From Atopobium sp. BS2 (GTDB lineage: Bacteria > Actinomycetota > Coriobacteriia > Coriobacteriales > Atopobiaceae), in assembly GCF_000565075.1 (NCBI RefSeq), contig NZ_JDFG01000033.1:1-64000 (forward strand): a DNA stretch of 64,000 bases. The letters are read 5' to 3'. A program made the translations under genes and the position numbers. Each line of letters starts with the position of its first letter. The first letter of the stretch is position 1. This document shows positions 38,228 through 41,804 of this stretch, piece after piece. The notes under the pieces are model-generated. The model was given only the letters and a program-made list of their open reading frames with translations. It was not told the origin of the DNA and did no database searches.

Positions 38228-38258
38228 TTGACACAATCTGGCAAAGTAATGGTATTCT
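38228..38258 (+). promoter_or_regulatory. Candidate promoter of the tryptophan leader
   Basis: A perfect TTGACA (38228-38233) is followed after 19 bases by TATTCT (38253-38258). The spacing is long, so the promoter may be weak or activator-dependent. Confidence 0.5.
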
Positions 38259-38298
38259 TCTTACATTGCAATTTACGCTCTTGGGAGGAGGACATATC

Positions 38299-38361
38299 AT
38301 GCGCGCTACATGCACTCAGCAGTGGTGGTGGAACAACTTGTCTTTCTCCGGTCAGCGATGA
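38299..38361 (+). CDS. Tryptophan-rich attenuator leader peptide
   Basis: A strong ribosome binding site (GGGAGGAGGACATATC) precedes a 20-codon frame, MRATCTQQWWWNNLSFSGQR. It contains three consecutive Trp codons (TGG at 38323-38331) and ends TGA at 38359-38361, 25 bases before an intrinsic terminator. This is the arrangement of trp-operon leader peptides, in which ribosome stalling at Trp codons when charged tRNA-Trp is scarce prevents terminator folding. Here the downstream genes are not biosynthetic but encode an ECF transporter. The frame is too short for gene-finders and is easily missed. Confidence 0.9.
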   Translation: MRATCTQQWWWNNLSFSGQR

Positions 38362-38386
38362 GTTGCTTCTGCATACGCATTTAGAG

Positions 38387-38413
38387 GCTCTCGGGTGACC
38401 GAGAGCTTTTTTT
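38387..38413 (+). terminator. Trp attenuator terminator
   Basis: GCTCTCGG (38387-38394) and CCGAGAGC (38399-38406) enclose GTGA and are followed by seven T residues. It stands between the leader peptide and the transporter genes, so it should control read-through. Confidence 0.9.
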
Positions 38414-38507
38414 GTGCGTACGTTTCTTGCTAGATCCGGATGGCGAGAAACCCGTGTTGTTATAAGTTTTGTTTGTACGTTTTTAGTTTTGCGTTAAAGG
38501 AGTTTGT

Positions 38508-39101
38508 ATGTCTACAGAAAATCTCAATCAGGTTGACGCCGCAGGCACAGAGGCAGGATCTGCAGATCAGGCACCACGTGTTGTTGCTGTTTCAAAAAAT
38601 GCAGGAGTATTGGACGTTACTTCTCTAGTCCTTGTTGCCGTCCTTATTGCTGCTGGTTTTATTCTTAACCTGACCGTTGGTAAGGCAATTAGTGCTATTG
38701 GAATTGGTCCAGAGTTTATTATTTCTTCGTTCTGCCTGGCTATTCTTTTGCTGAAGCCAAATGCTGTTCAGAGCCTGGTTATTGGTCTTATCGCAGCTAC
38801 CGTTATTCAGCTGACCACCTCTGTTCCTGGTGCTGATTTTGTTGCAGAGGGCGCAGCTTCACTTGTTATGTTTGCTTTCACAAGGTCTGCTCTTGCAGAT
38901 AAGCCAGTAATGCCTGCAATTGGTTCTTTTGTAACCACTCTTATTTCTGGCTTGATCTTTGCTGCCATTGCTATTCCAGCCAAGGGTGCAACTATTGAGC
39001 TTTTCTACGTAATGCTTCCTGTCATCGTGGGAACCGCATTCTTTAATGCTATTGTTGTTCAGGTTCTTGCGGCTCCTCTTAAGAAGGTTTTGGGTCGATA
39101 A
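38508..39101 (+). CDS. trpP: ECF transporter S component, predicted tryptophan (TrpP-like)
   Basis: This 197-residue integral membrane protein has about five to six hydrophobic helices after a soluble N-terminal 35 residues. The middle (KPNAVQSLVIGLIAATVIQL, then TTSVPGADFVAEG) resembles the TrpP tryptophan-transporter family. The specificity prediction rests mainly on the Trp leader peptide and attenuator upstream. The ATPase and EcfT genes that follow would complete the transporter. AAAGGAGTTTGT precedes the ATG. If the Trp prediction is wrong, another aromatic compound or indole is the next guess. Confidence 0.8.
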   Translation: MSTENLNQVDAAGTEAGSADQAPRVVAVSKNAGVLDVTSLVLVAVLIAAGFILNLTVGKAISAIGIGPEFIISSFCLAILLLKPNAVQSLVIGLIAATVIQLTTSVPGADFVAEGAASLVMFAFTRSALADKPVMPAIGSFVTTLISGLIFAAIAIPAKGATIELFYVMLPVIVGTAFFNAIVVQVLAAPLKKVLGR

Positions 39102-39136
39102 GTTCTTAGATACGCACTTATTTCCTGGAGAACACT

Positions 39137-41062
39137 GTGTCTATTATTGAAGTTCAATCTGTGTCATATAGCTATCCTGATAGCTCAGCGCATGCTCTGA
39201 ATGAGCTGTCACTAAGCGTTCAGGAGGGTGACTTTGTAGGTATTGTTGGTCCTTCTGGCGCAGGCAAGTCCACGCTTGCTCTTGCGCTTTCTGGCGCTAT
39301 TCCTCACCACTTCAGAGGAAATTTCTTTGGAAAGATTCTTGTCGCTGGAATGGATACCTGCACAGTTGCGCTGACTGATATCTCTAAAATTGTGGGTTCT
39401 GTAACCCAGGATATCAACGCGCAAATGGTTGCTTCAATTGTTGAGGATGAACTTCTTTTTGGTCTTGAGAACTTTGCAGTTCCTCATGCAGAGATTCCAG
39501 AGCGCATTACCTATGCTCTAGAGACAGTTGGTATTGCCAACCTCCGCTTTAGAGAGATTGCCTCTCTTTCTGGTGGACAGAAACAAAAGGTTGCTATAGC
39601 AGCACTTTTGGCGCTTCAGCCACAAGTTATGGTGCTTGATGAGCCAACAGCGGCCTTAGATCCAACGTCGTCCGAGTTAATCTTCCAGACCCTTTCAGAG
39701 CTCAACAAAACCAAAGGTATTACGGTTGTGGTGATTGAGCAAAAAGTAGGTCTTCTCGCTAAGTATTGCTCAAAGATTGCCGTTATGGACAAGGGCTCCA
39801 TTTGTGCATACGGTAGCGGTGAGGAAGTGTTCTCTCAGGTAGATTTACTGCAAGAGGTTGGCGTTGACGTTCCTCGTTGCGTGCGCGTCTCAAAAGGCGT
39901 CCATGAGCTCTCTCATCAGTCTGAGTATGCTCATTTATTATCTGAGGCGAACAGTGCTGTCTGCGATGAAACTGCGTTGTCAGTTCAGTCAGCCGCCAAG
40001 CAGCTTGCGTGCTGTGTAGGCGCTCTCCAGCATCGCAGCATTTCCCTTACAGAGGACTCTCAACCAGTAGCTACTAATGACGTTGAGTTAGCAGGGGAGA
40101 CGTATCTTCCAAAAATAGATGGCCCTGTGATTGCTGAATCGAGCGGCCCATTTGACAGGATTGGCATTCTTCAAGACGCAGAGCAGCCAAGTGTTCAATC
40201 TGTTCTTGACGTTATCGACGCCACCTTTAAATATCAAGGGAGTACTGATGGTGTTGAGCGCGTCTCCCTCAGTTTGCGCCCTGGCGAGCTTGTGGCACTT
40301 GTTGGTCAAAACGGCGCAGGTAAAACCACTTTAACTAAGCTGGTAAATGGCCTGTTGCGTCCTCGATCGGGAGACATTCACCTTAAGGGTGCATCGTGCA
40401 AGGATTGGAAGACATCGCAGATTGCTCAACACGTCTCTACGCTGTTCCAAAATCCCGATTATCAGATCTGTAAAGAGAGTGTCCTTGAGGAGATTGCGTT
40501 TGGTCTTGAGCTCAAGGCTGTGTCTGCAGAGGATGCGCGCAAGAAAGCGCTTGAAGTAATTGATCGCATGGGACTTGATGCAGATGCGTCGCCGTTCATG
40601 CTTTCTCGCGGACAGCGTCAGATGGTTGCGCTTGCATCTGTGGTTGCCTGCGAGCCAGATATTCTTGTGCTTGATGAGCCAACTTCGGGTCTGGATTACA
40701 AAGAGTGTATGCAGGTCATGAATATGGTCAAATCACTGTGCGAGAAGGGCTGTGCAGTTCTTATGGTTTGCCATGACATGGAGGTTGTGCTGGACTTTGC
40801 CACAAGAATTGTCGTTATGGCACATGGTAGCGTGCTAGACGATGGGGAAGTTGCACAGATCTTCTCGGCAGATGAGGTTTTGAAGGAAGCATACGTTGAG
40901 GCTCCTCAGATGATTCAACTGTCAAAACTTGCGGGCGCGCACGTAGATCCATCATTTGCTGGGCTTAACAGCGCTTCCGAGGTGCTTGAGGCATTGCAGC
41001 ATCAGTTTGAGATTGCTCGTATTGCGGCAACGCTGAATGGTAAGGAGGCTCCTCGTGGGTAG
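39137..41062 (+). CDS. ecfA: ECF transporter ATPase, two nucleotide-binding domains fused
   Basis: This 641-residue protein has two ABC ATPase domains, whereas most ECF systems use separate EcfA1 and EcfA2. Domain 1: Walker A GPSGAGKSTL (about 34-43), signature LSGGQKQKV, Walker B VLDEPTAALDP. Domain 2: Walker A GQNGAGKTTL (about 391-400), signature LSRGQRQMV, and LDEPTSGLDY. The linker (about 235-365) is poorly conserved. GTG is the start, with CTGGAG before it. It supplies ATP hydrolysis to the S and T components encoded on either side. Confidence 0.94.
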   Translation: MSIIEVQSVSYSYPDSSAHALNELSLSVQEGDFVGIVGPSGAGKSTLALALSGAIPHHFRGNFFGKILVAGMDTCTVALTDISKIVGSVTQDINAQMVASIVEDELLFGLENFAVPHAEIPERITYALETVGIANLRFREIASLSGGQKQKVAIAALLALQPQVMVLDEPTAALDPTSSELIFQTLSELNKTKGITVVVIEQKVGLLAKYCSKIAVMDKGSICAYGSGEEVFSQVDLLQEVGVDVPRCVRVSKGVHELSHQSEYAHLLSEANSAVCDETALSVQSAAKQLACCVGALQHRSISLTEDSQPVATNDVELAGETYLPKIDGPVIAESSGPFDRIGILQDAEQPSVQSVLDVIDATFKYQGSTDGVERVSLSLRPGELVALVGQNGAGKTTLTKLVNGLLRPRSGDIHLKGASCKDWKTSQIAQHVSTLFQNPDYQICKESVLEEIAFGLELKAVSAEDARKKALEVIDRMGLDADASPFMLSRGQRQMVALASVVACEPDILVLDEPTSGLDYKECMQVMNMVKSLCEKGCAVLMVCHDMEVVLDFATRIVVMAHGSVLDDGEVAQIFSADEVLKEAYVEAPQMIQLSKLAGAHVDPSFAGLNSASEVLEALQHQFEIARIAATLNGKEAPRG

Positions 41063-41804
41063 TGTTATTGATTACACCGAAGGAACAAGCTTCCTTCACA
41101 AGGCAAATCCCGTGGCCAAGCTTGTATTTGCGCTTGAGCTCTTTGTGGCCGCCTTTGCCGCTCAAGGAACGATTGAGGTGCTTGCGGTACTCGCGCTCAC
41201 TATTTGTGTGGGAGTTGTCTCACAGAATGCTCAGAAGACTTTTAAGCTGGTATTTGGCTTTGCTGTCTTAGGTCTTATCTTGTGCGTTGTACAGACGCTT
41301 GTTGCCCCTGCTGGTCAAACGCTCTTTTTATTCATCACGGTAGGTGGTTTGGAGCGCGGCTTTAACGTTGCCCTAAAAACAATTGCGCTGGCACTGCCGC
41401 TGCTTTCTATGCTCTCGCTTATGCGCGTAGAAGACCTCATGAATGCGCTGGTAGAAGTTGCGCATGTTCCTTATCCTTATGCGTTTACCATTGCAACGGT
41501 TTTGCGTTTTGTGCCTGTCTTTGCTTCCGAGATGAACCATATTATGGAGGCTCAGATGGCTCGCGGCGTTGAGTTTGATACCAAAAATCCAATTAAGAAG
41601 CTCCAGCTCACCATGCCTTTGATTGTTCCTTTGTTGGTAAGTTCCGTTAAAAAAGCTGATGCTTCGGCACTTGCAGCTGAGCAACGAGGTTTCTATTTAA
41701 GGAACGCTTCATCTGCATTTAAACGCTATCCTTTGGCTCCATCAGACTTTGCTTTGATGATTCTTGGTGTTGCAGTAATTGTTGTTATCCTCGTGTTCTC
41801 ATAA
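41055..41804 (+). CDS. ecfT: ECF transporter T component
   Basis: EcfT is the transmembrane coupling subunit of ECF importers. From GTG at 41055 (preceded by TAAGGAGGCTCCTC) it has 249 residues and overlaps the ecfA stop by eight bases. Several membrane helices flank a cytoplasmic region with the coupling motifs QMARGVEF (about residue 175) and AAEQRGFYL (about 215), the two Ala-Arg-Gly-type helices that contact the ATPase. The ATG at 41037 is in frame but has no good ribosome binding site. It ends the predicted tryptophan transporter operon. Confidence 0.93.
   Translation: MGSVIDYTEGTSFLHKANPVAKLVFALELFVAAFAAQGTIEVLAVLALTICVGVVSQNAQKTFKLVFGFAVLGLILCVVQTLVAPAGQTLFLFITVGGLERGFNVALKTIALALPLLSMLSLMRVEDLMNALVEVAHVPYPYAFTIATVLRFVPVFASEMNHIMEAQMARGVEFDTKNPIKKLQLTMPLIVPLLVSSVKKADASALAAEQRGFYLRNASSAFKRYPLAPSDFALMILGVAVIVVILVFS

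Follow-up and report, generated by a model that had tools for sequence, protein, structure and literature searches.

The region upstream of an ECF transporter operon in Atopobium sp. BS2 is very probably a ribosome-mediated transcription attenuator, which would sense charged tRNA-Trp and thereby control a dedicated ECF tryptophan importer. It is located in the window, i.e., the whole 64,000-nt stretch of DNA that was analysed, where an initial annotation had already proposed an attenuator acting on a tryptophan importer; at the sequence level this reading appears supported, as the same leader is found before orthologous S genes and before a gene for an unrelated Na+ symporter. The elements computed were (i) the leader, (ii) its geometry, (iii) three helices in relatives, (iv) the two transporter families it precedes, (v) the absence of trpA and trpB in the genus, and (vi) the fold of the S component; stalling, read-through, transport, regulation and tryptophan as the substrate are what we infer. 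For the Coriobacteriales as a whole, we lean towards a distinct class of attenuator serving Trp uptake and not synthesis, where a codon-encoded antiterminator, 19-22 nt from the Trp codons, would attack the terminator loop and 3' arm in a kinetic switch, the module being placed before two unrelated importer families.

Architecture of the Leader and Operon

All the leader elements reported in the initial annotation, namely a leader of 20 codons with three Trp, a strong ribosome binding site (RBS) and a terminator with seven T residues, are found in the window (Table 1). The leader ORF, which is short, is preceded by an RBS of its own and includes successive codons for the presumed regulatory amino acid, is kept in relatives, and an intrinsic terminator lies between it and the S gene; this terminator is also found in the aligned relatives. 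Assuming 1.1% Trp, three Trp in succession are expected by chance in a 20-codon ORF with a probability of about 2e-5, and the fold of the 136-nt leader has a z of -4.4 relative to dinucleotide shuffles. No relevant Rfam family was found for the leader, neither by scanning the window nor by a permissive scan of the leader. The TTGACA and TATTCT of the candidate promoter are both present in the closest relative (L019). Read by eye, the leader and operon are flanked by a rplU-rpmA-like gene pair and an obg-like gene. The genome containing the window is 1.6 Mb in size. Named genomes of Collinsella and Enorma are among its relatives, which places it in the Coriobacteriales and, probably, in the Atopobiaceae.

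Table 1. Features of the leader region and of the downstream transporter operon, with positions given in the window.
Feature	Position	Strand	Description
Candidate promoter	38228-38258	+	TTGACA (38228-38233), 19-nt spacing, TATTCT (38253-38258); consensus match only
Ribosome binding site GGGAGGAGG	38283-38291	+	Strong; 7 nt upstream of leader ATG (38299)
Leader peptide ORF MRATCTQQWWWNNLSFSGQR	38299-38361	+	20 codons and TGA stop; homologous leaders in relatives
Three tandem Trp codons	38323-38331	+	TGG TGG TGG; putative regulatory codons
Region 1	38328-38339	+	Partner, region 2; candidate pause/anti-antiterminator hairpin; swap tests
Antiterminator strand UCUCCGGUCA	38345-38354	+	End of leader ORF; partner 38396-38404; GGTC position fixed, swap tests
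Region 2	38360-38372	+	3' of leader ORF; partner, region 1, or alternatively region 3 in most relatives
Intrinsic terminator	38383-38413	+	Stem AGAGGCTCTCGG/CCGAGAGCTTTT (38383-38394/38399-38410), loop GTGA, T7 38407-38413
ECF S component	38508-39101	+	Probable tryptophan-binding protein, TrpP-like; sub-threshold Pfam TrpP; S-component fold
Fused ECF ATPase A1-A2	39137-41062	+	Single 641-aa protein; TIGR04520 and TIGR04521 above cut-off
ECF T component	41037-41804	+	CbiQ family; PF02361, 91 bits, over cut-off

Distribution of the Leader in Relatives

Comparing the Trp codons of leaders in relatives, as the initial annotation had suggested, gave a strongly favourable outcome, with a fixed geometry before orthologous S genes. 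Scanning genome contigs yielded 17 relatives of the S gene, and a WWW leader with terminator precedes all 16 of those with upstream sequence. Over the order, an S match was obtained in 230 of 395 genomes; upstream regions were read at about 110 S loci, including some duplicates from the same genome, and in families f1 and f3 of the Coriobacteriales the leader stands before nearly all S orthologues having enough upstream sequence. The pattern TGGTGGTGG-N18-GGTCRA occurs in 136/395 genomes of the order, a few chance matches included, and in 0/83 genomes from the rest of the class, in a slightly stricter search where C was required after WWW. Four of the matches (G001, G061, G128 and G145) were set aside, as no leader-like ORF followed by a terminator is present and they look like chance. 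Wherever examined, the leader stood before uptake genes.

Exceptions in the Trp run itself are two successive codons in L080 and L087 and W-A-W in L102, and L123 has WWW together with a different antiterminator. Relatives bearing the transporter and no Trp codons, which the initial annotation had regarded as damaging to its reading, amount to a few cases, as no leader precedes the S gene in G038 (L085), G039 and G012 (L100); nearly all others in families f1 and f3 carry it. Of note, in G038 and G039 (L196, L197) the leader ORF is gone and the terminator CGGCTCCCGGGTTGACCGGGAGCC still lies upstream of S; trpA is present in both genomes. Before distant S relatives in family f4 and other families, the leader is mostly absent, and these may therefore be paralogues or otherwise regulated. 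In G394 (family f10), the leader precedes a diverged S gene and its helix is compensated. In G354, a T-box also lies no more than about 1 kb away from an S-component gene (L129, 2832-3079).

Regarding spacing, 87 distinct leaders chosen for TGGTGGTGG were aligned. Counted from the last Trp codon, GGTC occupies +19 to +22 nt in 84 of them, and the stop codon stands at a fixed +28 in 85. From the known footprint of the ribosome, GGTC would be free when the ribosome is stalled on the Trp codons and covered when it stands at the stop codon.

In eight genomes of the genus g84 (family f4), the leader occurs at a site other than that of the matched S gene. Where the next gene is readable, these leaders (L183-L188, L190 and L191, from genomes G306-G317) precede genes of SNF-family (sodium:neurotransmitter) Na+ symporters, identified by Pfam in two cases (7e-47 and 3e-49) and by a shared N-terminal sequence in the others; L189 (G316:C88) precedes an ECF operon and not a symporter. 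G311 has the SNF gene next to the ECF operon, with a WWW leader before each. Most symporter leaders have an ORF ending with TAA or TAG before GGTC, and GGTC and its partner are retained; since it is kept where the leader ORF stops upstream of it, this moved stop, as a natural experiment, indicates that GGTC would act as RNA.

Alternative RNA Helices

For the swap test, 60 leaders less than 90% alike were used, and the duplex energy of each helix with its own partner was compared with that of partners swapped between species, which removes only part of the effects of relatedness. The z values were -4.3 overall, -2.5 with one leader per genus and -4.2 when stratified by family for the 1:2 helix, -3.2, -2.7 and -3.2, respectively, for the 2:3 helix, and -3.6, -3.2 and -4.7, respectively, for the antiterminator:terminator helix. 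Control pairings were mostly about 0, with the largest at -2.1 for R1:T5 (unstratified) and -2.0 for R1:AT (stratified). A classical antiterminator, which would pair with the terminator's 5' arm, was rejected, as there was no excess over swapped partners for AT:T5 (z -0.6) or R2:T5 (z 0.4), and likewise none in the repeat by genus and family. Mutually exclusive helices are thus represented by 1:2 and antiterminator:terminator, to which 2:3 is added in relatives; in the window itself the latter is weak (-0.6 kcal/mol). The 2:3 antiterminator of the initial annotation is borne out as a helix in relatives, but the best-conserved antiterminator helix is the one formed between the end of the leader ORF and the terminator loop and 3' arm.

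In this helix, the antiterminator GGUC has as partner a GACC located in the loop and 3' arm of the terminator. The GGUC:GACC core is paired in 58/60 leaders, with a contiguous helix of 5-14 bp, mostly 6-9, the full 14 being reached in L109, L111 and L121. In L123, where GGUC is absent, inspection shows an ACUCUGA in the same register matching UCAGAGU of the terminator. Pairing was tested column by column with GACC as the anchor, anchoring on the first complementary site being ambiguous; the flanking position p23 is paired in 46/60 leaders vs 42.3 in shuffled ones, the 46 being reached by 60 of 5000 shuffles. Because the core hardly varies, covariation comes mainly from the flanking positions and the 1:2 helix.

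A stalled ribosome was mimicked in folding by masking the 5' end to +12. The predicted pair probability of the antiterminator then exceeded 0.5 at some stage in 60/60 leaders, with the 3' arm still short, and the terminator usually prevailed once about 7-12 nt of the 3' arm were exposed. At one of these stages, this pair exceeded 0.5 in 97% of native vs 33% of shuffled leader segments. In the complete transcript, the terminator was more probable in 53/60 species even with a stalled ribosome, and antitermination must therefore be kinetic; in these folding models, kinetic capture by the antiterminator, as the mechanism would require, appears plausible.

Transporter, Substrate and Tryptophan Biosynthesis

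The three genes after the leader follow the order S, ATPase and T given in the initial annotation, except that the two ATPases are a single fused polypeptide; both ATPase families and the T-component family are scored over their cut-offs (Table 1). The resemblance of the S protein to TrpP, also claimed at the outset, is weak for the window protein, which scores 17 bits with Pfam TrpP (PF17099) and remains under the gathering score of 27.2; it is better founded for the family, since TrpP is matched by 10/12 of its alignment members and a leader-bearing S homologue in L185 lies over the gathering score with 33.1 bits. The AlphaFold model of the window S protein (pLDDT 77.5) gives VIA Z values of 10.3-16.5 with solved S components, and at most 8.7 with unrelated folds, i.e., the predicted model has an ECF S-component fold; Foldseek E-values for this model alone are weak. 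Altogether, the substrate of the operon is probably tryptophan. Two tandem S-component genes are present in G114-G121, G050, G059, G143 and other genomes, the second copy being much more diverged and possibly having another substrate.

Among solved structures, the closest relative of the SNF symporter is 4us3, which we take to be MhsT, solved with Trp bound. The SNF family of Na+ symporters counts known tryptophan carriers among its members.

As for biosynthesis, none of the five genomes of the window's genus (G000-G004) has trpA or trpB, and the genus is therefore probably unable to make tryptophan; its supply would then depend on such a switch. No Trp leader lies upstream of trpE in any of the 15 genomes of the order examined (0/15), nor in 16 regions upstream of trpA, which were not anchored on verified operon starts. 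One of the former genomes, G021, has a T-box upstream of trpE (L241, 925-1202), and the WWW leader of its S gene has another antiterminator helix. In G115, G118 and G093, low-score trpA-like matches with an in-frame stop are possibly decaying genes.

Proposed Mechanism and Alternative Explanations

When Trp is plentiful, the ribosome would reach the fixed stop codon and cover GGUC, so that the terminator would form and the operon would be off. When Trp-tRNA is scarce, the ribosome would stall on the Trp codons and cover region 1; GGUC, lying outside the stalled ribosome, could then pair with the emerging terminator loop and the start of the 3' arm, and region 2, freed from region 1, would pair with region 3 in most species. 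With the terminator thus blocked, S-A1A2-T would be transcribed. Should there be no translation, GGUC would be enclosed by the 1:2 hairpin and termination would be the default.

The attenuator could also sense Trp-tRNA while the ECF transporter imports some other compound needed when Trp is short, e.g., a derivative of indole or kynurenine, or a different aromatic, which we hold to be unlikely. The substrate is deduced indirectly, the window S protein falls under the TrpP gathering score, vitamins are the usual cargo of ECF systems, and some genomes have tandem S genes; on the other hand, TrpP matches most members of the S-family alignment and a leader-bearing homologue passes that score, the same leader stands before an SNF symporter related to 4us3, and trpA and trpB are lacking in the genus, all of which argue for tryptophan. 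Still less credible would be an attenuator without regulatory link, i.e., a translated short ORF followed by an ordinary terminator, its Trp run being incidental: the weakness of the 2:3 helix in the window would fit, but the spacing is fixed across many genera, with matching helices and two transporter families, and this explanation can practically be dismissed.

A different sensor is conceivable, as the WWW peptide could be a nascent arrest peptide responding to free tryptophan, in the manner of TnaC, and not to charged tRNA. The conservation of peptide positions near WWW and of the final G-[RQ] would agree with this; yet this C-terminal conservation is explained by the RNA, as GGTC is kept although the ORF stops earlier in symporter leaders, and as in L020/L021 the stop comes immediately after GGT with the RNA register unchanged. 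TnaC acts through Rho, unlike the present leader, which is followed by an intrinsic terminator, and its sign, with Trp as inducer, would be odd for an importer. The free-Trp arrest peptide was thus rejected as very improbable, and the charged tRNA-Trp attenuator is retained.

The attenuation of an importer, not of synthesis, would invert the textbook picture. The Coriobacteriales include common gut and other host-associated bacteria. For a group of ECF S components mostly under the TrpP threshold, the leader would provide genetic evidence on substrate, and variants already present in nature, namely two Trp codons, W-A-W, the moved stop, the replaced antiterminator helix and the deleted leader, lend themselves to tests of ribosome position.

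Comparison With Known Systems

The Trp attenuators described in Actinobacteria stand upstream of trp operons and of trpS (PMC1262725). In the open-access literature searched, no description was found of a Trp leader preceding an ECF transporter, nor of one from the Coriobacteriales. The present leader resembles those of Corynebacterium and Streptomyces (PMC1262725) as well as the enterobacterial trp leaders in its 2-3 UGG codons, alternative helices, GC-rich terminator and poly-U. In contrast to these, which control biosynthetic operons or trpS, it is placed before importers (0/15 trpE in the same order), and the principal conserved strand of its antiterminator is part of the leader ORF and targets the terminator loop and 3' arm. 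It is thus a variant of a known attenuator, new because it would serve uptake and because of this antiterminator target.

In Bacillus subtilis, TrpP (YhaG) is treated as an ECF S protein using the general EcfA1/A2/T (PMC11487621), and as the tryptophan importer of this bacterium, repressed by TRAP at translation (PMC13170310). The window S protein shares with it the Pfam family (at weak similarity) and, presumably, tryptophan uptake switched off when Trp is plentiful; unlike trpP of B. subtilis, its operon supplies a dedicated fused A1-A2 and a dedicated T, and the predicted switch would consist of RNA only. In the Bacillus cereus group, NSS transporters are under T-box control (PMC2494555), where, as proposed here, tRNA-Trp sensing governs an importer of the NSS family; unlike T-boxes, which bind the tRNA directly, the sensor here would be the translating ribosome.
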